From Candidatus Zixiibacteriota bacterium (GTDB lineage: Bacteria; Zixibacteria; MSB-5A5; GN15; JACZUZ01): DNA of 64,000 nucleotides. The notes below the pieces were generated by a model, which made no database searches, was not told where the DNA came from, and saw only the letters and a program-made list of their open reading frames with translations. The position numbers were made by a program, and so were the translations under genes. This document shows positions 39,745 through 63,260 of this stretch, piece after piece (position 1 is the first letter of the stretch; each line of letters starts with the position of its first letter). The stretch spans positions 62,001-126,000 of the forward strand of contig JAJRPM010000010.1 of the NCBI GenBank assembly GCA_024280775.1, read 5' to 3'.

Positions 39745-42700
39745 ATGCAAACAATTTCCAACAAATCTGCAATTAAGTCTCTAGCGCTAATCTTAATCAG
39801 CTCTAGCCTGGCTCTTTGGGTAGTTAGTGAACGATTTCAGCAGGAGGACCTGACAGGTAGTGTCAACTCTGATGTAGAAAAGGCAAGCAATTTGTCATCG
39901 GCGAATCTTGCCGCAACACAACAGCTTCGATTTGTGGAAAACCAGGGCCAGGCCGGACTCTCGGCAAAATACCATGTTCAAGGAGCCGGGCATACTGTTC
40001 TGTTCCATGAGGATAAAGTTGTGCTACGTAGAGATGAAGCGGTTGGCGCGAAGAATGAGATTGTCCTGCAATTCAATGGAGCAAATCAAAATCCGGAAGT
40101 TTCAGGGCGCGAGAAACTTCCCGGTGTAGCTCATTTTTACAAAGGTCAAAATCCAGAACAATGGCACACCAATGTACCTACATACGAATCTGTGATATAT
40201 TCGGAATTGTATCCTGGCATAGACATGGCCTACATCGGAAACGATGGCAAACTTGAGAGCGAGTTCTATGTCTCTCCGGGAGTTGATTTCCGTCAAATCC
40301 GAATAAGCTACAATGGTGTCAAAGCAATTACCATCCGAGATGACGGCGCCTTGGCGCTCACAACTGAAATTGGTGAGCTAATTGAGAGACGTCCGTTTGC
40401 CTATCAGAATGTTGATGGAGCAAGAAAAGAAATTGATGCTGAGTATGTGTTACTTGCCGATGCATCGGTTGGTTTCGAACTAGGTGGCTATGATCATGAG
40501 CGGCCGTTGGTGATTGACCCTGAACTGGTTTTTCTCTCGACAATCCCTGGTGGGCCGGGCGGCGGTGAATGGGCTGGTGATGTGGTTATTGATAATGACA
40601 ATAATGTCATACTTTCAGGCGGCGCTAATCGTTTCTTTCCTGCCGCCGATTCTATCGCCGGTTCAAACCATGTTGGCGGCTCTAGTAGCGATGGTTTACT
40701 TGTGAAGCTAGATGGCACTACTGGAGCTGTGATCTATTCTGCCTTGTTTGGAGGCTCCAGATTGGATTACTTCAATGAACTTGCCATCGATCCCTCAGGC
40801 AATCTATACCTTACCGGACTAACCAAGTCTAGCGACTTCCCGGTTCTGAATGCTCTTCAAGACACATTGGCCGGCGCAGAGGATGCATTCATGACTATAC
40901 TGGATGCGACCGGCGCACTTACCTACAGCACATATATTGGGGGAACATTGCGAGACTGGGGTGAAGGAATCACTTTGGATGATTCCGGCAACGTATATAT
41001 CGGAGGTAGCACCGAATCTGACGATTTCCCCACCACAGCTGGATTCCAGTCGACCTTTCAGGGAGGCTCTCGCGGCTCGGCATTTCCGGCTGATAACTTT
41101 GTGGCGAAATTCACCGCGCAAGGAGACCTGGTATACGCCACTTATCTTGGTGGCTCAGGAGATGACAGGTTTCAGGGGCTAACTGCCAATAGCTCAGGTC
41201 AAGTGACTGTCGCTGGAAACACGCTCTCATCAGATTTTCCGATGATGAACGCTTATCAGGATACACTAGGCGGCATTAAATGGGGAATCGGGGACATTAC
41301 AGTCACCAAGTTAAACAGCTCTGGAACCGGTCTTATTTATTCGACATATATCGGTGGCGCCATTCAGGATTGGGCAACCGATATTGCCAGTGGCATAAAT
41401 GGCGAAGTATACGTCTCAGGCGGAACAAGCTCATCGAACTTCCCGGTCATAAACGGCCTTTCCGCGCCGGAAGCAGACACTTCCGACGGCGTTCTTATCA
41501 GCTTGAACAAGGTTGGACAACCTGTCTATTCAGTGCGGACCAATTCGCCCGGATTCGACGCATTTGCCGCGGTTGGAGTTCATGGTCGCGCAGTTGCATA
41601 TCCTGTGGGTTCATGGGGTGATTCGACCAGAGTTTATGTAAAGTCAATTGACAGCGCTTTGAGTGTCCATTTCGCATTTGCGGCTCCTGGGCACAAGGTC
41701 AACAGCGCGTATTTATTTGGAGAATACATGGCCTTCGCGAATGTGTTCTTCGCCGCTTCTCCGGCAACCTCTTCTGCCACCGGCAACGCAAATAATCTGT
41801 CTTTGGGTTCGTCTCCAAGTTTGGCTGGTAGCGCCTTGAGCAGGTTGATTAGCAAGGGTCTATGGATAGCCGCGTTCAATAACTCTGCGCTAAACTTGGA
41901 CTACGATTTCGGTGATGGAATTCTAGCTCTTGGCGCTCAGCAAGACGGAAATACCACAGTCAACGGCGAAAACACAGGTGTTCCTACCGAAGAAGTCGTT
42001 GAGGTAAATATTAAGGGTTCCGATGGCGATGAGGAAGTCGACTTAAGCGGTATGATGGTTGAGTATTTTACGAATTTGACTCTTGTTGCCATCGTCACCG
42101 GCGGTGGCTCGGACTTGGTATTTGCGACTGTATTAAATAACATCAACTTATTGGTAAACGCAGGCGCCGGAGTTGACCAAATCTATGTTGCGTTATGGAT
42201 TAGTTATGTCAACGCCATAATCAATGGTGGACTTGGAAGTGATATGTATACCTTCCTCAGTCAATCCAACTCCCAACAATTATCTCCGACACCAGCAAAC
42301 CCAGGCGCCGCGCGATATGCGGTAGCTCCAGTCACAGTAGTTGATTCAGGAGGTGTGGACACCTTGAACTTTGCCAATTATGGCATGGGCGTCACTTTGG
42401 ATTTGGAAGCGCAACAAACTGCGCAAACCATCGACACCTCAGGTACGCAGATTGTTCTGGATGGAATGTTTGAAGTTGTAAGAGGAAGCGCCTCAAATGA
42501 TGAGATTACTCTCGCCCCTCTAGCTGGTGTTCCTCGACATTTTGACGGAGGAAGCGGAACAGATGTCCTGAACATCGCTCCGGCGAGCGCTCAATCAGTC
42601 GATGATGGCTCCACTATTCGGACACCGGGGTTTGCAGATATAACCTATTCAAATATCGAGACTGTCAATCTACCGATAGTCACTGGAATCGGAGATGACG

Positions 42701-42993
42701 ACAAGCCGTTGCCTTTCAACTTCAGTCTCAATCAGAACTATCCAAATCCATTCAACCCGTCAACAGTGATTTCGTACAGCATACCCACCAAATCCGAAGT
42801 GACAATCGGAATATACAATGTCCTCGGTCAGCAGATTGCGCTCTTTTCACAAGGACAACAGTCTGCAGGCGAATACAGTGTCACCTGGAGTTCTACTGAC
42901 AAATCCGGTGTGAGTGTCGCCAGTGGGATGTACTTCTACAAGATCACTGCTGGAGATTTCACTGCCTCACGGAAAATGGTTCTCTTGAAGTAA
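39745..42993 (+). CDS. Large secreted SBBP beta-propeller protein with FlgD-like C-terminal tail
   Basis: A 1082-residue exported protein. A signal segment lies at about 9-26. The first domain (about 55-260) matches the family found before SBBP repeats (FVENQGQ, HFYKGQNPEQWHTNVPTYE, YPGIDMAYIGNDGKLESEF). SBBP repeats follow at about 270-600, each of the type YSTYIGG...DIAS..GEVYVSGGT.SSNFPV. Residues about 730-930 contain RTX-like glycine/aspartate turns (GGGSDLVFA, GAGVDQIYV, GGLGSDMYTF, GGSGTDVLNI). The last 85 residues (NYPNPFNPSTVISYSI...GMYFYKI) form the FlgD-like tail seen in type IX-secreted proteins. It is probably surface-located; the ligand is unknown. Confidence 0.85.
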   Translation: MQTISNKSAIKSLALILISSSLALWVVSERFQQEDLTGSVNSDVEKASNLSSANLAATQQLRFVENQGQAGLSAKYHVQGAGHTVLFHEDKVVLRRDEAVGAKNEIVLQFNGANQNPEVSGREKLPGVAHFYKGQNPEQWHTNVPTYESVIYSELYPGIDMAYIGNDGKLESEFYVSPGVDFRQIRISYNGVKAITIRDDGALALTTEIGELIERRPFAYQNVDGARKEIDAEYVLLADASVGFELGGYDHERPLVIDPELVFLSTIPGGPGGGEWAGDVVIDNDNNVILSGGANRFFPAADSIAGSNHVGGSSSDGLLVKLDGTTGAVIYSALFGGSRLDYFNELAIDPSGNLYLTGLTKSSDFPVLNALQDTLAGAEDAFMTILDATGALTYSTYIGGTLRDWGEGITLDDSGNVYIGGSTESDDFPTTAGFQSTFQGGSRGSAFPADNFVAKFTAQGDLVYATYLGGSGDDRFQGLTANSSGQVTVAGNTLSSDFPMMNAYQDTLGGIKWGIGDITVTKLNSSGTGLIYSTYIGGAIQDWATDIASGINGEVYVSGGTSSSNFPVINGLSAPEADTSDGVLISLNKVGQPVYSVRTNSPGFDAFAAVGVHGRAVAYPVGSWGDSTRVYVKSIDSALSVHFAFAAPGHKVNSAYLFGEYMAFANVFFAASPATSSATGNANNLSLGSSPSLAGSALSRLISKGLWIAAFNNSALNLDYDFGDGILALGAQQDGNTTVNGENTGVPTEEVVEVNIKGSDGDEEVDLSGMMVEYFTNLTLVAIVTGGGSDLVFATVLNNINLLVNAGAGVDQIYVALWISYVNAIINGGLGSDMYTFLSQSNSQQLSPTPANPGAARYAVAPVTVVDSGGVDTLNFANYGMGVTLDLEAQQTAQTIDTSGTQIVLDGMFEVVRGSASNDEITLAPLAGVPRHFDGGSGTDVLNIAPASAQSVDDGSTIRTPGFADITYSNIETVNLPIVTGIGDDDKPLPFNFSLNQNYPNPFNPSTVISYSIPTKSEVTIGIYNVLGQQIALFSQGQQSAGEYSVTWSSTDKSGVSVASGMYFYKITAGDFTASRKMVLLK

Positions 42994-44086: not shown

Positions 44087-46030
44087 CTACGAACCGGTAG
44101 TACCGCAAATTGGCGCTGGCCCGCCCGAAAAAATCCGGGAAATCAAGTAAGTCACATCGGCGATATTGAAGGTGTTATCACCATTAGCGTCTGCTTGGTC
44201 GGTACAAACCGGCGGAGGTCCGCCTGAGAAAATACGAGCTATTTCAAATGTAACATCAGCGATATTGGTTGCGAAGTCAAAGTTTGCATCACCAGGAATA
44301 AAGCAACATCCCTGAGGTGTAACCTCCACCGCCCCGGCGGATACCGATGGAGTTACGACCAACGCACAGGGATCAGAATAGCTGGGCAATACCCCATTTA
44401 TGTCCTGGATTACTACTGCATTTGGTCCGTCTGGCGCTCCACCGGAGACAGAAAAATACAAACTCAAAATCGGACCAGAGCCTGCGTCAAGCGCGGCGTT
44501 GACATCAGTAGTTGAGGCTATAAGGGCTACGGCCAGTTCGCGCGAAAGAGGATTGACGCTGAGCGTATCAATCTTCTCCATTGACTCAGAGCGCAATCCC
44601 GCCTTGGAAACGCTATCGAGTGTCAAATTCGCTGGGCCATCATAGAAGATTGGTATTTGAAATCTATGAATAGGATGTGAGTTGGTCCCGTAAATATCTA
44701 CTCTAACTTGTGAGCCTGCAGGCGCGCTGACATTCTCCACTATGAGAGTATCAAATGCTCCAACAGTTTCTTCGTGCAGTATGTATAGTTTGCCGTCCAT
44801 ATTTGAGCCGTAGATAAAGCCATTCGGCGAATATGGATACATCCCCCAACAGCCATTAAACCCCGGGAACTCTGTAGGCCAGGTGTCAAGAACTCCGATT
44901 TCCTTGGGATTGGTAGGATCCGAAAAATCAACTACTCGCATTCCGGATTCATAATGGGACAAATATACAGTATCACCCTTCACCTGTGCATTATGCGCCA
45001 AACCGCCCGGCGCCAAATACTGCCCTAACAGTTGCACATTGTTCAGGTCCTGTATATCCCAGAATTTTACCGTCTTGAATGACGTTTCCTCAGTAGTCAC
45101 CGCGATAGTGTTGTCACGGTTAGGCCAGATATTGTGCGCGTAGCCTCCACCCGGCGGAATCCATGACGAAAGTAGTTGAGGGGCGCTCTTGTCGGTGAGA
45201 TCCCAAACCGAGAATGAATGCACCGCTCCGTCGGCCACAAACACGGTGTCGTTATTGGCGACCATGTCGTGAATACTTTGTGTAATACTACCGAATCCTG
45301 TCAGGTATGAAGGTGTTGCCGGGTTCGTTAGATGATGCACGAAAATGTTTCTATTAGTCCAACCTGATGCGCCGAACCCTTCGGCATATAAGAAGCCGGA
45401 TATGGTGTCAATGCTAAGATTATGCGAACTGGTGATGGTCACTCCCGCCGAGGCCGGACTTACTTGAACAGTATTCACCCAACTGACACTATCAGGAAGG
45501 AATTGCATATCGATAACCTGAATATTGCTACCACATTCGGTCACTACGTAGCAATACTGACCGAAAGTCTTGATGTCCTGCCAGCTACAACCCGGTGTCG
45601 GAACCTCATCAACTACTACCCCTGTAGTCGCATTGACAAAGGCGATTGAGACACCAGTTCCAAATATGGCATAGTCAACATTTGACGGAGATGTATACCC
45701 CCAAATATCTGAGCCTGCCGAGGAAGGAAACTGTATTATGGTATCCAGACAAAAACGATAGATGTTCTCGCCGGCCGGGACAGTTGCTGCGGCGCTACTA
45801 ACGCGGAATGTAGAAGTCGGAGATTGTTCGCCTACTGGACCCGATGGCAAAACTGTTGGGGCCGGGTCGGTGATGTTCTTGCGAAATGTCGGAACAGAAA
45901 ACGCCGAGTTGGACATCACAAGAGATGCTGATATCACAATGGCCGTGAAGACTTGAGTTTTTTGCAGCAAACTTCTTTTTGTGCTTTTTGTAATTGTCAA
46001 AATCATAGATTGCATCTCATTAGATATCAT
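44087..46030 (-). CDS. Choice-of-anchor B protein with cohesin-like and dockerin-like domains
   Basis: A 647-residue secreted protein. The signal peptide is near 25-48, and starts at the second or third Met are also possible. Residues about 90-425 form a beta-propeller-like domain of the choice-of-anchor B type (DIWGYTSPSNVDYAIFG, SHNLSIDTISGFLYAEG, WDLTDKSAPQLLSSW). Residues about 430-560 resemble a cohesin fold (VENVSAPAGSQVRVDI, ILSLYFSVSG). The C-terminus has two calcium-type dockerin-like motifs (GDANFDFATNIADVT and DANGDNTFNIADVT), each followed by ARIFSGG or SRIFSGG, with paired cysteines. The end PAPICGTTGS is shared with the protein at 56857-59838. It is probably cell-surface or exported. 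Confidence 0.83.
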   Translation of the reverse strand: MISNEMQSMILTITKSTKRSLLQKTQVFTAIVISASLVMSNSAFSVPTFRKNITDPAPTVLPSGPVGEQSPTSTFRVSSAAATVPAGENIYRFCLDTIIQFPSSAGSDIWGYTSPSNVDYAIFGTGVSIAFVNATTGVVVDEVPTPGCSWQDIKTFGQYCYVVTECGSNIQVIDMQFLPDSVSWVNTVQVSPASAGVTITSSHNLSIDTISGFLYAEGFGASGWTNRNIFVHHLTNPATPSYLTGFGSITQSIHDMVANNDTVFVADGAVHSFSVWDLTDKSAPQLLSSWIPPGGGYAHNIWPNRDNTIAVTTEETSFKTVKFWDIQDLNNVQLLGQYLAPGGLAHNAQVKGDTVYLSHYESGMRVVDFSDPTNPKEIGVLDTWPTEFPGFNGCWGMYPYSPNGFIYGSNMDGKLYILHEETVGAFDTLIVENVSAPAGSQVRVDIYGTNSHPIHRFQIPIFYDGPANLTLDSVSKAGLRSESMEKIDTLSVNPLSRELAVALIASTTDVNAALDAGSGPILSLYFSVSGGAPDGPNAVVIQDINGVLPSYSDPCALVVTPSVSAGAVEVTPQGCCFIPGDANFDFATNIADVTFEIARIFSGGPPPVCTDQADANGDNTFNIADVTYLISRIFSGGPAPICGTTGS

Positions 46031-56856: not shown

Positions 56857-59838
56857 TCATGAGCCAGTGTTACCACAAATCGGGGCCGCTCCGCCTGAGA
56901 ATATACGAGCGATACCGTAGGTTACATCTGCAATATTGAATGTGTTGTCACCGTTGGAGTCAGCTTGGTCCTGACAAATTGGAGCCGGGCCGCCTGAAAA
57001 TATGCGCGCGATTCCAGAGGTTACATCAGCGATATTGAATGATGCGTCATCGTTAAAGTCACCGGGGACAAGGCAACATCCCGCCGGTGTACAAACGCCG
57101 CCATCAAACCCTGGAGCGGCGGCGTGAGATGTGAATTCACGTTGCCATAGATGCGTCCAATCATCAGTCCATAGCGCTGAATCAGGACTGAAGGCCCCTG
57201 TAAACAACACGTCAGTGAAGAATGCGTTACTGGCGTCCGGATTGCTGGTAGTCCAGTTCGGACAAATTGTAGAACGAGGGTCCAATCCATTGTCCGGTGT
57301 GCGTGAGATACCAACCAACGAGGGATTTGTAACAAAGTTATTCTTACTCGCATCCCGGAAGAGTATATCGAGTACGTATGAGTCAGTGACGTAGCTGGCA
57401 GTGTCTGTAAACGCCACTTGATCAACTGCGGCGCCAAAGCCCCACCAAATGTTACATTCAAACTCAAGGTCACCCACTTCTAGTCGCTCACGACTGTCAG
57501 CTCCGCTTACCAAGTCCTCAACAGTCAATGCGCGGTCGGCAAAATCAGTGAAGATGCTATTGAAGTACTTCCCGCCTGCATTGTCTCTGATGGCAAAACC
57601 ACGATTGGCGGTTAGCGCATTGACGCCTGAGCCAATGTAAGTAGCGTTCTTGATAACCGGGATAGCCAACGGGGTTCCATCTTCAGGAACGGTGCCGCCG
57701 TCATGCTCACCTGCCCGGTCGCCAAAGGCCGCGTCGTTAAGACTGAACCAGAACTGACCTTTACCGCGGAATCCTTCGTCATAATCAAAACTGTCATCAC
57801 CGTTGAAAGCAGAAACCATGTATGAGGTGTTGACTGTGCCACCGAAGAACTCAAAGCCATCATCAAGGTTGTTAAACACTTCGACGTGGTTGATTTCAGT
57901 GCCGGAGCCAACAGCGCCCAAAGTAAGGCCGTTGATTTCATTGCCGGCTCCGATTTGTGTGCCGCCATGACGAATCGAGACGTACTTGAAAACACCTGAG
58001 TTGTCAGCGTCATTGGTTCCACCGTAGGCGCCGCGAATTTCTGATGGCGGAATACCTTCGATTTGACCGACACCCAAGGCTGTGTTTATTTGCGCATTGC
58101 CTAGAATAATCACACCGCCCCAAAGACCGTTGGTGCCTAGTGGAATGTCATTCGGGTCAGGTACATTGTCGGTAACACTGGTGAATACAATCGGCCACCA
58201 GGGCTTTCCAACTGCGTTGATTGTGCCGCCTTGCGCGACGATAAGTGCGCTGGCGGATGCTCCAGCTCCAGGGAGAGCCTTGATTATTGTTCCGCCCTCG
58301 ATATTGAGAGTCTCACCATTTTCTACGAACACAAACCCACTGAGAATGTAGACAGTATCCTGCGTCAAGGTGCGTGTTCCAACAATATCAGCGTCTGTCA
58401 CTGTGACAGTAGGCTTACCATTGTTTTCATCCCAGAGAACGCCCGGGACAGGGGCGTTTGAAGTATAGCCCAGCTCCCAGAGATAGGTCCAGTTGTCGGT
58501 CCAAAGAGAGTCTTTGGGGTTGAAGGCGCCAACCCATTTGGAATCTACGAAGAAGGGATCGGAAAAATTGCCCCAGGCTGCGAGATTGTCGGTCCATGTA
58601 GGACAGAAACGAGCGCGCGGGTCGAGTCCGCCGTCACGTGAACGACTGATACCAACTATTCCCGGATTGCGTGTCAAGTTGTATTTTGCTGAATCACGGA
58701 AGAGGATGTCGAGTACGTATGTATCTGTTACATAGCTAGCGGTATCGGTGAAGCCGACCTGATCAACGGCGGCGCCGAAGCCCCACCAAAGATTGCCACG
58801 GAAGTCCAAGTCACCTGTCTCAAGGCGCTGTCTGCTGTCTGCGCCACTGACTAGGTCTTCGACCGTCAAAGCGCGGTCGGCAAAGTCGGTGAAAATGCTG
58901 TTGAAGTACTTGCCGCCAGCGTTGTCTCTAATAGCAAAACCGCGATTGGCGGTGAGCGCATTTACGCCGGAACCGATATAAGTAGCGTTCTTGATGTGAG
59001 GAATCGCGAGCGGAGTTCCATCCTCGGGAACTGTTCCGCCGTCATGCTCTCCTGCTCGATCGCCAAATGTCGCGGCGTTAAGACTAAACCAGAATTGCCC
59101 ATTGCCACGGAAACCTTCGTCATAATCAAAACTATCATCACCATTGAAGGCAGAAACCATGTACGAAGTGTTGACTGTACCACCGAAAAACTCAAAACCG
59201 TCATCGAGATTATTGAAAACCTCAACGTGATGTATTTCAGTTCCTGAGCCCACAGCTCCCATAGTGAGTCCGTTGATTTCATTTCCCGCGCCGATTTGTG
59301 TGCCACCGTGACGAATTGAGACGTATTTGAAAACGCCTGAATTATCGGCGTCGTCGCTTCCGCCATATGCCCCGCGAACTTCCGCAGGTGGGATACCCTC
59401 AATCTGTCCAACTCCCAGAGCTGTGTTTATCTGAGCGTTGCCCAAAATAATGACGCCACCCCAAAGACCGTTGGTTCCGATTGGAATGTCGTTAGGGTCA
59501 TCGACATTATCAGATACACCAGTGAAAATAATGGGGCAATTCGCCTCGCCATTGGCGAAAATCTTTCCGCCGCGAGCCACTATCAAGGCGCTCGCAGATG
59601 CGCCTGCGCCCGGCATGGCCTTTACGATTGTCCCAGGGTCAATGGTCAATGTCTCGCCAGATTCGACGAATACAAAGCCATTTAGAACATAAATGTTCGA
59701 CGCTGACCAAGTGGTAGCGCCGACTATGTCGGCGTCGGTTACGTTTACAATCGGTTTGCCGGCTTCTGTTATGCAGTTCTGTCCCCAACTGAGAGTCGGG
59801 ACAAGAAGCAGGATGATTACTGCTCTCAAGATAGACAT
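56857..59838 (-). CDS. Secreted protein with internal duplication and dockerin-like tail
   Basis: The start chosen is the ATG at 59838, with GGAGAG nine bases before it, giving MSILRAVIILLLVPTLSWG as a clean signal peptide; an upstream ATG at 59904 would add 22 residues. The mature protein (about 970 residues) consists of two units of about 440 residues, each starting near VTDADIVG and carrying WGGVIILGNAQINTALG, YVSIRHGGTQIGAGNEINGL, NLDDGFEFFGGTVNTSYMV and ANRGFAIRDNAGGKYFNSIF. These look like a beta-helix or similar surface fold. The tail has two dockerin-like motifs (GDFNDDASFNIADVT, DSNGDNTFNIADVT) and ends PICGNTGS, like the gene at 44087. Function is unknown. Confidence 0.85.
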   Translation of the reverse strand: MSILRAVIILLLVPTLSWGQNCITEAGKPIVNVTDADIVGATTWSASNIYVLNGFVFVESGETLTIDPGTIVKAMPGAGASASALIVARGGKIFANGEANCPIIFTGVSDNVDDPNDIPIGTNGLWGGVIILGNAQINTALGVGQIEGIPPAEVRGAYGGSDDADNSGVFKYVSIRHGGTQIGAGNEINGLTMGAVGSGTEIHHVEVFNNLDDGFEFFGGTVNTSYMVSAFNGDDSFDYDEGFRGNGQFWFSLNAATFGDRAGEHDGGTVPEDGTPLAIPHIKNATYIGSGVNALTANRGFAIRDNAGGKYFNSIFTDFADRALTVEDLVSGADSRQRLETGDLDFRGNLWWGFGAAVDQVGFTDTASYVTDTYVLDILFRDSAKYNLTRNPGIVGISRSRDGGLDPRARFCPTWTDNLAAWGNFSDPFFVDSKWVGAFNPKDSLWTDNWTYLWELGYTSNAPVPGVLWDENNGKPTVTVTDADIVGTRTLTQDTVYILSGFVFVENGETLNIEGGTIIKALPGAGASASALIVAQGGTINAVGKPWWPIVFTSVTDNVPDPNDIPLGTNGLWGGVIILGNAQINTALGVGQIEGIPPSEIRGAYGGTNDADNSGVFKYVSIRHGGTQIGAGNEINGLTLGAVGSGTEINHVEVFNNLDDGFEFFGGTVNTSYMVSAFNGDDSFDYDEGFRGKGQFWFSLNDAAFGDRAGEHDGGTVPEDGTPLAIPVIKNATYIGSGVNALTANRGFAIRDNAGGKYFNSIFTDFADRALTVEDLVSGADSRERLEVGDLEFECNIWWGFGAAVDQVAFTDTASYVTDSYVLDILFRDASKNNFVTNPSLVGISRTPDNGLDPRSTICPNWTTSNPDASNAFFTDVLFTGAFSPDSALWTDDWTHLWQREFTSHAAAPGFDGGVCTPAGCCLVPGDFNDDASFNIADVTSGIARIFSGGPAPICQDQADSNGDNTFNIADVTYGIARIFSGGAAPICGNTGS

Positions 59839-60353
59839 GTTTTGTTCTCTCCACACAATTCGTTTTGATAGGTATGAGTTGGTTGATTTCAATAGACTTT
59901 TCATTCGGACAAGATGACTCAGATTACTACCTTCAGTTTTTGTTCTCTCCCGCTCCTTTTCGCTTTAGCGCTAAATACTACTTACTGTCGTTACTGGCTC
60001 GATGATACTAGTGATTGTGTAACACACACTCTCTTTACTTCTTCAACTGGAAATAGAGCTGTTGTGGCTACAGCGCGCCTACTTCCAGCAGACAGTGAGA
60101 ATATTGGCGATGGAAAGTTATTCCTGATGAGATGTGAGTTAATGTTTAGTTAATCACGCAGGACATTGGAACGAAATGGAACGCAATTGAAAACAATTGA
60201 AACATCCCAAAAGAAAGACCGCAAGGACATATTGTCTATTGCGGTCTTTCCGGGGTGGCAATGAAAACGAAGGCAAACTATTGGGACAGAAAGAAGCTCA
60301 TAATTCTTAGCCTTTGCTTCAGCGCCTTAGGGGGCCTCGGAGGTCGAAGCGTC
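59839..60353. other. Gap between the dockerin gene and the TonB receptor gene
   Basis: 515 bases with no convincing gene. It holds the leader of the dockerin protein, a near-repeated GGAACG-type sequence (60170-60200), and the 12-pair terminator of the TonB receptor gene. A 79-codon frame at 59914 has no family features. Confidence 0.4.
60213..60250 (-). terminator. Terminator of the TonB receptor gene
   Basis: GAAAGACCGCAA pairs perfectly with TTGCGGTCTTTC around a 14-base loop. On the reverse strand a T-rich tail (TTTCTTTTGGG) follows. It lies about 105 bases after the receptor stop. Confidence 0.7.
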
Positions 60354-63260
60354 TCATGGTGAGTATGTCAGACCAAGTGAGAAAGTTGATCCGCTGGAGT
60401 ATTCCTGGAAGATATATTCCTGTCCCTTATATTGATGTGTCTTTTTGTACTTTGAATTCAATATGTTCTTCCCCGCCGCTTTGAGTTTCAAAGACCCTAG
60501 TAGCCTCTGTGAAAACGTCAGGTCAAATTCAGGTCGCGGCTGCTCATAGACATCAGGAGTGCCGCCAAGTGACACTGTGGCTAAACGCTCCCCAAAGACA
60601 TTGAACATACCGCTGATTACTGTGCCTCGTTGTGCATTTTCATAAGTTAACTCGGCATTAAGTATGTATCCTGACTGCCCCTGCATCGGTCGGGTGGATG
60701 ACGCGTTGGGGTCAAATGCCCGGATAATTGTCAACTCGGTTTCGCCGATATCGACTTTCGAATCTACTAAAGTCAGGTTTCCAGCTATGAAAACGTTTGA
60801 GAACCTTGAACCAAGTTGGTCGAGTCTCTTACGCAATTCAAATTCCAATCCATAAACCTGACCACTCTCAACATTGACAAACTGAACCGAGCCATTTGCA
60901 TCTACAATTGTTCGTTCAATCGGATTCGAGAAGTTCTTGAGGTACACGCTCACCGCCATAACTTCCCCGGGTCTGGCAAACCACTCCCAACGTAAATCGT
61001 AATTGTCTACTAAGGTCCTTTGTAGATTCGGATTCCCACTGAGAATGTAATCATTGATGAACTCAAACGATGGGAATGGAGCCATCTCCCTCAATGTCGG
61101 CCGGGCCAAAGTCCTGCCGTAGGCGGCGCGTATGTTGATATACTGTGAGGTTTTGTACACCACATTCAAAGATGGCAGAATGTCATTTTCACTAAGTGAC
61201 CCTACGTCTTCAGTTGGGTCAAGGCTAAGTGTTGTCATCTTGGTAGTCTCGAAACGGGCGCCGGTGATAACAGTTACTTTCCTCGAAATCGGGTATGAAA
61301 GCATTGCATAGGTTCCAAGAATCGTTTGATCACCATTGTAGCTGTTTCTCAAGTCGGTAACATCAGAGACATACAAGCCAGACCAGGAAGAATTGACGTT
61401 ACTATTCCCTACGTTATTGGCGAAATATGAATTCGGATCACCAGTGTAGCCCCACGAGGAGCCAAGTGATTTGTAATCATATTGCTTCTCACGAAAAGTT
61501 CTGGACTTCGACAAGGCGGCGACTCCAAACTTAACCTCTCCGCGAATATCGTTTCGCGTAAAGGGCATAACCAAATTGACCTTGAGGTCTCGCGTGTTCT
61601 CATCCAAATTACGGAAATAGTGTGTTGGTGATGGATATTTCGATGGACTGATGCTGTAAACAGTTGTATCTCGCCTGGCTATATAACGATAGTCATCTGA
61701 GAAAAAACGAAGGTCAGGATTGTTTTGTTGGGTATTCGCAAACCCTGCCTGCCAGTCGAGTTCTACTCTCTTGACAAAGTCAAACTTGTGTGTTCCTTTT
61801 GCCTGAAAACTACTCAACTGACGCTCGGTATATCCCAGCGCCCGAGTTTCGAAAACCTCATCTTCACCCAAATCACGTGGCAATTCTCCGAATAGATAAC
61901 GTGATGATGTCTCAGCGCTACGATTGTACATGAGGTTTGCGCGAACTGATTGATCGACGCCTAGACTGTGTGTCAAGCTAACCAAACCGCCCCATGACAC
62001 TTCGTCAGTCGACTTTGTGTCGTTCAAGAGGTAATCCTTGCTTAGCTCATTGACAGTATTCACGTTACCGGGGTTATTCCAACGCCCAACCTTACCATTT
62101 TCATAAAACGATATGTTTCGCTTGTAGTTAAGGCTGGCCATCATGCCAAGGGGACGATTCCCAATTGAGTATTTGTTTCCGTAGTTTAGCGTATAGGACT
62201 GATTGGTAGGAGCGGAACCAACGGTGGGACTCATTTGAGTGTTGAAGGCGCGTGACGCTTTATCGAGCGCGATTGAGGAATCAGGATTCACAAAAGCAGA
62301 GCCAACACTTGGTATATCACTCCCTTGCCTGGAAACCAATGCGGGAATATCTCTGCCTCCGTCATCAATCCCCAACCAGTCAGTAGAGCCACCAGAGTAG
62401 CTTAGGAATTTATCCGAGAATGACGCCTGAGAATTGTAAGAGCTTGATGTTCCGAAAGAGAATGCGCCCTGTTCAGGATATTTCTTTAGATTTAGCTCAA
62501 CACTTCCACCAGTGAAGTTTCCCGGTTGATCGGGTGTGAAGGTTTTTAACACCACTATATTATCCAGCATACCCGCGCTGATTAAGTCCAGCGGAGCAGA
62601 TTGTCTATCCGGGTCTGCGCTAGGCAAGGCCATTCCATTGAGCGATGAATTTGTGTAACGGTCGCCAAGCCCACGTACAATTATGTGTTTGCCGTCTGCG
62701 ATTGTTACTCCGGTCACATGCGTCATCGCTCCGGCGGCGTCAGAACTACCATTGCGACTTATCATCTCCGCGCTAATTGCGTTAGTAACTCCCGCGGCTT
62801 TACGACGATCGGTCAACAGCGCCGCATCAGTGTTCTCAACCTTGCGGACTTCAACCGTAATTGTCTCATTCGTATATTGAATTGTTTCGGACTCAAGTTG
62901 AGCGTCTATAGTTGCCACTCCTCGTGATGTAACAACAACGCTGTCCCACACTATAGTCTTATATCCAATAGTGGAGAATCTGACAATATGAACACCGACA
63001 GGTACCTGCCGGATACTAAATCTACCATCAACATCGCAAAAAGCTCCTAACTGTGTGCCAACCACTACAGCGGTAGCTCCAACCAACGCCTCTTTTGTTT
63101 GACTGTCAGTGACCATACCGCTAATCGTACCGAATTGCTGTGCAACAACTGACCTAACAATCCCTAGTGACATCAACGCCAAAAGCAACGACAACATCCC
63201 CAGGAAACTCAGGCTCATTAGCTTCCTGCTTTCAACCTGTGACTTAACTTGAAATCTCAC
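60354..63260 (-). CDS. TonB-dependent outer-membrane receptor
   Basis: A 968-residue predicted outer-membrane beta-barrel transporter. The signal segment (about 15-40) ends near VVAQQ. A carboxypeptidase-regulatory-like domain follows (about 43-115, GTISGMVTDSQTKEALVGATA). The plug domain shows ISRNGSSDAAGAMTHVTGV and IIVRGLGDRYTNSSLNGMALPSADP (about 165-220). The barrel ends in SSGSTFSLGLTYSP, with the usual C-terminal aromatic pattern weakly met. Substrate unknown; SusC-type pairing is not seen, as no SusD-like gene is present. It is divergent from the response regulator at 63505, which could control it. Confidence 0.9.
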   Translation of the reverse strand: MRFQVKSQVESRKLMSLSFLGMLSLLLALMSLGIVRSVVAQQFGTISGMVTDSQTKEALVGATAVVVGTQLGAFCDVDGRFSIRQVPVGVHIVRFSTIGYKTIVWDSVVVTSRGVATIDAQLESETIQYTNETITVEVRKVENTDAALLTDRRKAAGVTNAISAEMISRNGSSDAAGAMTHVTGVTIADGKHIIVRGLGDRYTNSSLNGMALPSADPDRQSAPLDLISAGMLDNIVVLKTFTPDQPGNFTGGSVELNLKKYPEQGAFSFGTSSSYNSQASFSDKFLSYSGGSTDWLGIDDGGRDIPALVSRQGSDIPSVGSAFVNPDSSIALDKASRAFNTQMSPTVGSAPTNQSYTLNYGNKYSIGNRPLGMMASLNYKRNISFYENGKVGRWNNPGNVNTVNELSKDYLLNDTKSTDEVSWGGLVSLTHSLGVDQSVRANLMYNRSAETSSRYLFGELPRDLGEDEVFETRALGYTERQLSSFQAKGTHKFDFVKRVELDWQAGFANTQQNNPDLRFFSDDYRYIARRDTTVYSISPSKYPSPTHYFRNLDENTRDLKVNLVMPFTRNDIRGEVKFGVAALSKSRTFREKQYDYKSLGSSWGYTGDPNSYFANNVGNSNVNSSWSGLYVSDVTDLRNSYNGDQTILGTYAMLSYPISRKVTVITGARFETTKMTTLSLDPTEDVGSLSENDILPSLNVVYKTSQYINIRAAYGRTLARPTLREMAPFPSFEFINDYILSGNPNLQRTLVDNYDLRWEWFARPGEVMAVSVYLKNFSNPIERTIVDANGSVQFVNVESGQVYGLEFELRKRLDQLGSRFSNVFIAGNLTLVDSKVDIGETELTIIRAFDPNASSTRPMQGQSGYILNAELTYENAQRGTVISGMFNVFGERLATVSLGGTPDVYEQPRPEFDLTFSQRLLGSLKLKAAGKNILNSKYKKTHQYKGQEYIFQEYSSGSTFSLGLTYSP

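Follow-up and report, generated by a model that had tools for sequence, protein, structure and literature searches.

The locus described here raises the question of why a secreted protein should carry both members of a binding pair, a cohesin and a dockerin, in a single chain. The DNA analysed (the window; 64,000 nucleotides, positions 62,001 to 126,000 of contig JAJRPM010000010.1 in assembly GCA_024280775.1) is from a Candidatus Zixiibacteriota bacterium. A preliminary description of this DNA had pointed to one protein, hereafter the focal protein, with a cohesin-like segment and a dockerin-like tail, and had suggested that such pairs might assemble secreted proteins outside the cell. In clostridial cellulosomes adaptor scaffoldins have a cohesin and a dockerin in one chain and the X-dockerins have a domain directly before the dockerin. 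The role of non-cellulosomal dockerins is a long-standing puzzle.

The two domains of the focal protein

Positions 44087-46030 are full of stops when read on the plus strand; the protein is encoded by the minus strand (Table 1). In addition to the choice-of-anchor B profile, Pfam matched an LVIVD repeat in the propeller. The tail was recognized by Dockerin_1 (PF00404, residues 579-633), which scored 19.0 bits when the protein was searched alone (cut-off 22.9) and 23.5 bits in the genome scan. When folded alone, the dockerin gave a model with a pLDDT of 89.6, a pTM of 0.79 and helices at positions 22-34 and 55-67 of the model. This model matched solved dockerins, the best Z score being that of 5m2s_B (Z 10.1, 1.6 Å, 67 residues), with 4dh2_D at Z 9.9. 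Foldseek also retrieved 4dh2_D (E 2.8e-4).

Table 1 Features of the focal protein and of two other proteins in the window
Feature	Position in window	Strand	Basis or remark
Focal ORF (647 aa) with signal peptide, propeller of choice-of-anchor-B type, cohesin and dockerin	44087..46030	minus	Sequence, profiles, models
Probable signal-peptide region, aa about 21-46	45893..45970	minus	Sequence reading; start codon uncertain
Choice-of-anchor B (TIGR04312) beta-propeller, aa 100-419	44774..45733	minus	168.8 bits, cut-off 100
Cohesin-fold domain, aa about 426-573	44312..44755	minus	AlphaFold2, Foldseek, VIA-align; phmmer matches to cohesins found with PF00963
Dockerin tail (aa 575-647) with two Ca-binding loops and the ending CGTTGS	44090..44308	minus	Pfam; fold match to solved dockerins
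Pfam dockerin match within focal tail	44132-44296	minus	PF00404
Second protein with a dockerin tail (1015 aa), containing two long internal repeats	56857..59904	minus	ORF reading, Pfam
Pfam dockerin match of second protein	56920-57066	minus	PF00404
T9SS-tailed protein, DUF7948 and SBBP repeats	39745..42993	plus	Pfam/NCBIfam profiles
T9SS sorting tail of the DUF7948/SBBP protein	42739-42981	plus	Example of alternative C-terminal tag

The region between propeller and dockerin was not matched by the cohesin family PF00963, either in the Pfam search of the protein or in the genome scan. A single-sequence phmmer search with residues 421-576 retrieved two cohesins of the same genome that Pfam does recognize, C1_57925 (E 1.9e-12) and C11_16668 (E 3.8e-12). 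Comparison of the module sequence with the PDB gave matches to dockerins and none to a cohesin, and the identity of the cohesin was then settled by a fold search. Residues 421-647 were modeled with AlphaFold2 from 30 sequences (pLDDT 91.6, pTM 0.71; the relative placement of the two domains is not confident). The top Foldseek match of the model was 6kgf_C (E 1.6e-12), and VIA-align superimposed it on 6kgf with a Z of 18.4 and 2.2 Å over 143 residues. All 50 VIA-align rows among the matches listed were cohesins, including C. perfringens cohesins and the non-cellulosomal A. fulgidus cohesin 2xdh (Z 16.5). In the predicted structure, the unnamed region is unambiguously of cohesin fold.

The closest named match, from Dive100_bin1.50 (Candidatus Zixiibacteriota), was 72% identical, and the order propeller, cohesin, dockerin was kept in 19 of 19 aligned orthologues, the focal protein being counted among the 19. 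A chance origin is excluded by the 59 matches to the tail family across the genome and by the conservation of the three-part architecture among these orthologues. The focal chain carries a genuine cohesin and a genuine dockerin domain, and we regard this as practically certain; what the preliminary description had called by likeness was borne out for both segments by fold matches for each. That description had also reported a like tail on a protein at 56857-59838. This holds too, the two tails being 75% identical over 80 aa; the longest start lies upstream of the one given at 59838, and the ORF becomes 56857-59904. No cohesin was found in this second protein.

The focal tail contains four cysteines (Cys575, Cys576, Cys609 and Cys642). 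Across 30 rows of the focal module, C555 was kept in 23, C575 in 27, C576 in 29, C609 in 27 and C642 in all 30. Disulfides are likely in a secreted cohesin-dockerin (Coh-Doc) protein. The two dockerin tails of the window (44090-44308 and 56860-57066) both have a CC pair before loop 1, a Cys between the repeats and a Cys near the end, and the CC pair recurs in 37 of the 57 dockerin tails of the genome; possibly these dockerins are clamped by disulfides.

Cohesins, dockerins and T9SS tails in the genome and across the class

A scan of the focal genome (G000) with PF00404 gave 59 matches at E ≤ 0.1, of which 41 were over the cut-off, in 58 ORFs; 52 of the 59 stop no more than 20 aa before the stop codon. 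With a local HMM we counted 57 C-terminal dockerin tails. Two canonical 12-residue calcium loops are present in 53 of them, and loop positions 10-11 are nearly fixed (in segment 1, I in 50 and A in 42 of 53 tails), as is expected if there is one shared partner class. CG occurs near the end in 36 of the 57. Cohesins gave seven matches over cut-off with PF00963 and 24 with an in-house profile, A3. Combining 12 of the 15 Pfam matches (three at E 0.14-0.39 were omitted) with 22 of the 24 A3 matches gave 26 cohesin ORFs, of which 13 have a dockerin tail, 10 a type IX secretion system (T9SS) tail, three neither and none both. Each of the 26 has at most two cohesin matches, bearing in mind that the profiles may miss divergent copies. 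The preliminary description had proposed such a genome-wide count, and its outcome favours non-cellulosomal surface assembly.

The T9SS tail family gave 53 matches, 47 over the cut-off and six below, and these 53 ORFs show zero overlap with the 57 dockerin-tailed ORFs. The export machinery is encoded as well, with SprA (538.6 bits) and PorU (665.1 bits) both over cut-off. By a crude heuristic, a signal-like segment was present in 53 of 57 dockerin-tailed and 49 of 53 T9SS-tailed ORFs, versus 83 of 178 other ORFs. One of the 53 T9SS-tailed ORFs has an internal dockerin (C15:287144-289813, L062), the sole such ORF found in this genome. Together with seven of 30 cohesin ORFs of relatives, it rules out absolute exclusivity of the two domains. 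At another site on this contig (C15:255390-258071, L070) one ORF terminates in the beginning of a cohesin, and a T9SS tail follows just downstream in another frame; as judged from its frames, this locus is a split gene or a frameshift.

The proteins bearing the tails were then characterized by a Pfam scan of 55 of the 57, one fragment and one protein without a reference being left out. Among the 25 families listed, of 50 in all, the most frequent next to the dockerin itself included FG-GAP (8), PKD (8), TSP3 (7), subtilase/Peptidase_S8 (6), LVIVD (3), M12B (2) and M43 (2), and these 25 families contained no cellulase. Two dockerin-tailed proteins matched an NCBIfam glycosylhydrolase family. 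On these domain assignments the cargo looks like one for adhesion and proteolysis, not for cellulose breakdown. Eleven dockerin-tailed ORFs, partly adjacent, lie within about 54 kb of contig C7 (7236-61456; L083, L059, L060, L087 and L081), which suggests local duplication of cargo genes.

In the 132 genomes of the class (G000-G131) PF00404 was found in 127 and PF00963 in 118. In each of the nine genomes that have dockerins but lack a PF00963 match, A3 detects cohesins, which may be Coh-Doc modules rather than free anchors, and the five genomes without dockerins have no cohesin by PF00963 or A3. With the two profiles together, cohesins are thus present in 127 of 127 dockerin genomes versus none of the five dockerin-free genomes. 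The latter (G081, G082, G090, G091 and G097, one of them 52% complete) belong to two families, f6 and f7, and therefore the co-loss may represent one or two events. Four of these five genomes have 131-239 T9SS-tail candidates; the median for dockerin-rich genomes is 50.

The top PF00963 ORF was examined in each of 30 relatives. A T9SS tail was present in 25, alone in 18 and accompanied by an internal dockerin-like match in seven (five of these matches being weak); three ORFs had neither and two were cut. About eleven of the 30 are short, with just one cohesin between a signal peptide and a T9SS tail, and several of the top ORFs are only 276-334 aa long. Dockerin and T9SS counts did not show a simple inverse relation from genome to genome (Spearman 0.107, p 0.22), nor was the correlation significant at the level of families (-0.39, p 0.10). 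In a post hoc ranking based on loose first-look T9SS candidates and on dockerin counts that stop near 41 per genome and are lower bounds, the families f6, f7, f13 and f17 had the fewest dockerins and were also the four richest in T9SS tails.

Dockerin and T9SS tails on related proteins

Choice-of-anchor-B proteins were compared at 70 of 79 loci from named genomes, the nine running off the locus end being omitted. Among these proteins with intact C-termini, the T9SS type A sorting tail TIGR04183 was found in none of 31 labelled Zixibacteria versus 25 of 39 others, whereas the local dockerin HMM matched 29 of the 31 versus five of the 39. With Pfam Dockerin_1, a less sensitive model, the matches at E ≤ 0.05 fell to 9 of the 31 and 2 of the 39. 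The five dockerin cases outside the Zixibacteria label are designated "bacterium", GN15 or Calditrichaeota and resemble Zixibacterial proteins. In this propeller family either tail takes up the same C-terminal position, but the two are otherwise unrelated, TIGR04183 being a domain read by the T9SS and the dockerin a calcium-loop plug.

Such exchange was also seen within the focal genome. A propeller paralogue with a T9SS tail is encoded on contig C7 (a 1043-aa frame), and for 26 of the 57 dockerin-tailed proteins the region upstream of the tail has a homologue in a T9SS-tailed protein of the same genome. Identities were 52% over 437 aa for a paralogue on contig C3 and 47% over 348 aa for the focal protein. 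Note that several of the 26 pairs are short TSP3-like/repeat or cohesin matches.

A proposed surface system, its alternatives and its precedents

We consider the focal protein to be part of a cohesin-dockerin system of non-cellulosomal type on the Zixibacterial cell surface, with a probability of about 0.6. The extracellular, non-cellulosomal assembly put forward in the preliminary description is thereby retained as the best-supported idea, since both domains are real and the genome-wide counts favour it, while the pairing itself is a prediction. In this proposal the T9SS would export cohesin proteins and anchor them on the outer surface, some of these being only a signal peptide, one or two cohesins and a tail. 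Dockerin-tailed subtilases, metallopeptidases, FG-GAP/LVIVD propellers and PKD/TSP3 proteins would be exported by Sec and would plug into the anchored cohesins with calcium. As T9SS-anchored cohesins would hold dockerin-tailed proteins, the dockerin tail would replace the T9SS tail of the focal protein and take over as its hold on the cell. The Coh-Doc chains, the focal protein included, could act as adaptors or lengthen the assembly because they add a second socket. For the focal protein's own cohesin, an active socket is a tentative assignment, which we put at somewhat below an even chance.

T9SS cargo normally requires its own C-terminal tail. A bolder version, which we think unlikely, has the dockerin-tailed proteins dock on T9SS-tailed cohesins already in the periplasm and leave with them through the SprA channel. 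If such piggyback export were true, one T9SS passport would serve many proteins that lack a T9SS tail, and the dockerin tail would be a second outer-surface address standing in for the sorting tail.

The focal cohesin might instead be a structural companion that steadies the dockerin, as an X module would, and has no partner, the protein then being plain dockerin-tailed cargo; we give this a substantial but minority chance. A 220-aa Coh-Doc module recurs behind differing N-terminal parts within the focal genome, and in a cohesin tree of 27 rows (13 dockerin-linked, 13 T9SS-linked and one neither; strong support on 4 of 24 branches) a single clade (support 97/96) unites the focal cohesin with eight others of the 13 that are dockerin-linked. 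Cohesin and dockerin are therefore inherited together as a unit. The conserved cysteines in both halves (C555, C575 and C576) could tie them, and Pfam no longer sees the focal domain as a cohesin. However, the fold is that of a full cohesin, the neighbours of the nine-member clade in the tree are T9SS-tailed cohesins, and loss of binding would have to be assumed in up to 13 of the 26 cohesin ORFs. Compared with the clostridial adaptor scaffoldins and X-dockerins, the system differs in that the pre-dockerin domain here has a cohesin fold and anchoring appears to be T9SS-based. A clean division of the tree into dockerin-linked and T9SS-linked clades was ruled out, as the labels need 5-6 changes.

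The surface system proposed above also competes with readings that assign the pair other purposes. Coh-Doc chains could join head to tail into fibres or a sheath for which the T9SS cohesins provide only the start. This would make use of the presence of both partners in one chain in 13 ORFs and of the near-identical loop positions common to the tails, but about 44 of the 57 dockerin tails are on proteins without a cohesin, hence chains would often be capped, and we think fibres quite improbable. We are a shade more doubtful that the dockerin tail serves some other export machinery as a signal for sorting or processing and that cohesins are not its partner. The extreme C-terminal position of the tails, the frequent CG near their end and their occupation of the place of T9SS tails would suit a signal, whereas retention of the calcium loops and the co-occurrence of cohesins with dockerins across the class genomes would not. 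A true cellulosome for plant fibre would have the same building blocks, but we consider it highly improbable: the cargo families listed, 25 of 50, are peptidases, propellers, PKD and TSP3 with no cellulase, and none of the 26 cohesin ORFs gave more than two cohesin matches with the profiles used. Unlike that of clostridial cellulosomes, the cargo among the families seen here is not cellulolytic.

Three described systems come close to the one proposed. A non-cellulosomal "planctosome" was put forward for Nemodlikiaceae (Planctomycetes), in which the cohesin anchor has a lamin-tail domain, the adaptor has a dockerin and a cohesin in one chain, and the dockerin-bound peptidases include M12B reprolysin-like enzymes (PMC6461901). 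The 13 Coh-Doc ORFs and the dockerin-tailed Peptidase_S8 (6 of 55) and M12B-type (2 of 55) proteins of the focal genome resemble this arrangement, but in place of the lamin-tail anchor described there we find T9SS tails on cohesins and dozens of dockerin proteins. Candidatus Stygibacter (Cloacimonadota) is described as having a cellulosome-like complex built on a 3,755-aa scaffoldin of repeated cohesins and CBMs. In this description a conserved C-terminal domain, for which the authors cite a T9SS review, attaches the scaffoldin to the surface of the cell that makes it, and the secreted proteins that bear dockerins are peptidases and GH enzymes (PMC8542988). T9SS-tailed cohesin proteins are likewise found here (10 of 26 cohesin ORFs in the focal genome and 25 of 30 top ORFs of relatives), but there are several of them with one or two cohesin matches each rather than the one large scaffoldin of that account, and the cargo is mostly non-glycosidase whereas that of Stygibacter includes GH enzymes. 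In ANME archaea large non-cellulosomal dockerin and cohesin sets, including chains with a dockerin plus cohesins, were reported (PMC9012536), and the Zixibacterial sets are likewise large and non-cellulosomal and include chains that join both domains. The ANME differ in being archaea and in having ABC substrate-binding proteins as common cargo, and the account drawn on here describes no T9SS anchor for them.

Going by these accounts of Stygibacter, the planctosome and ANME, non-cellulosomal Coh-Doc surface assembly has precedents and is not new in kind. What seems new is its scale in Zixibacteria, the swap of dockerin and T9SS tails and the recurrent Coh-Doc module. In the openly licensed literature we found no paper linking Zixibacteria with dockerins or cohesins and none on choice-of-anchor proteins with a dockerin. 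If the proposal is true, an entire uncultured class would use cohesin-dockerin assembly as a general route for displaying secreted proteins, and this assembly would be tied to the T9SS. The tail swap on orthologous propellers makes the puzzle of non-cellulosomal dockerins a concrete, testable question. The two kinds of tail can also be found side by side: at C16:330643-333128 (L050, L294) two adjacent genes encode homologues, 29% identical over 545 aa, one dockerin-tailed and the other T9SS-tailed, which on sequence comparison is a tail swap between tandem copies.
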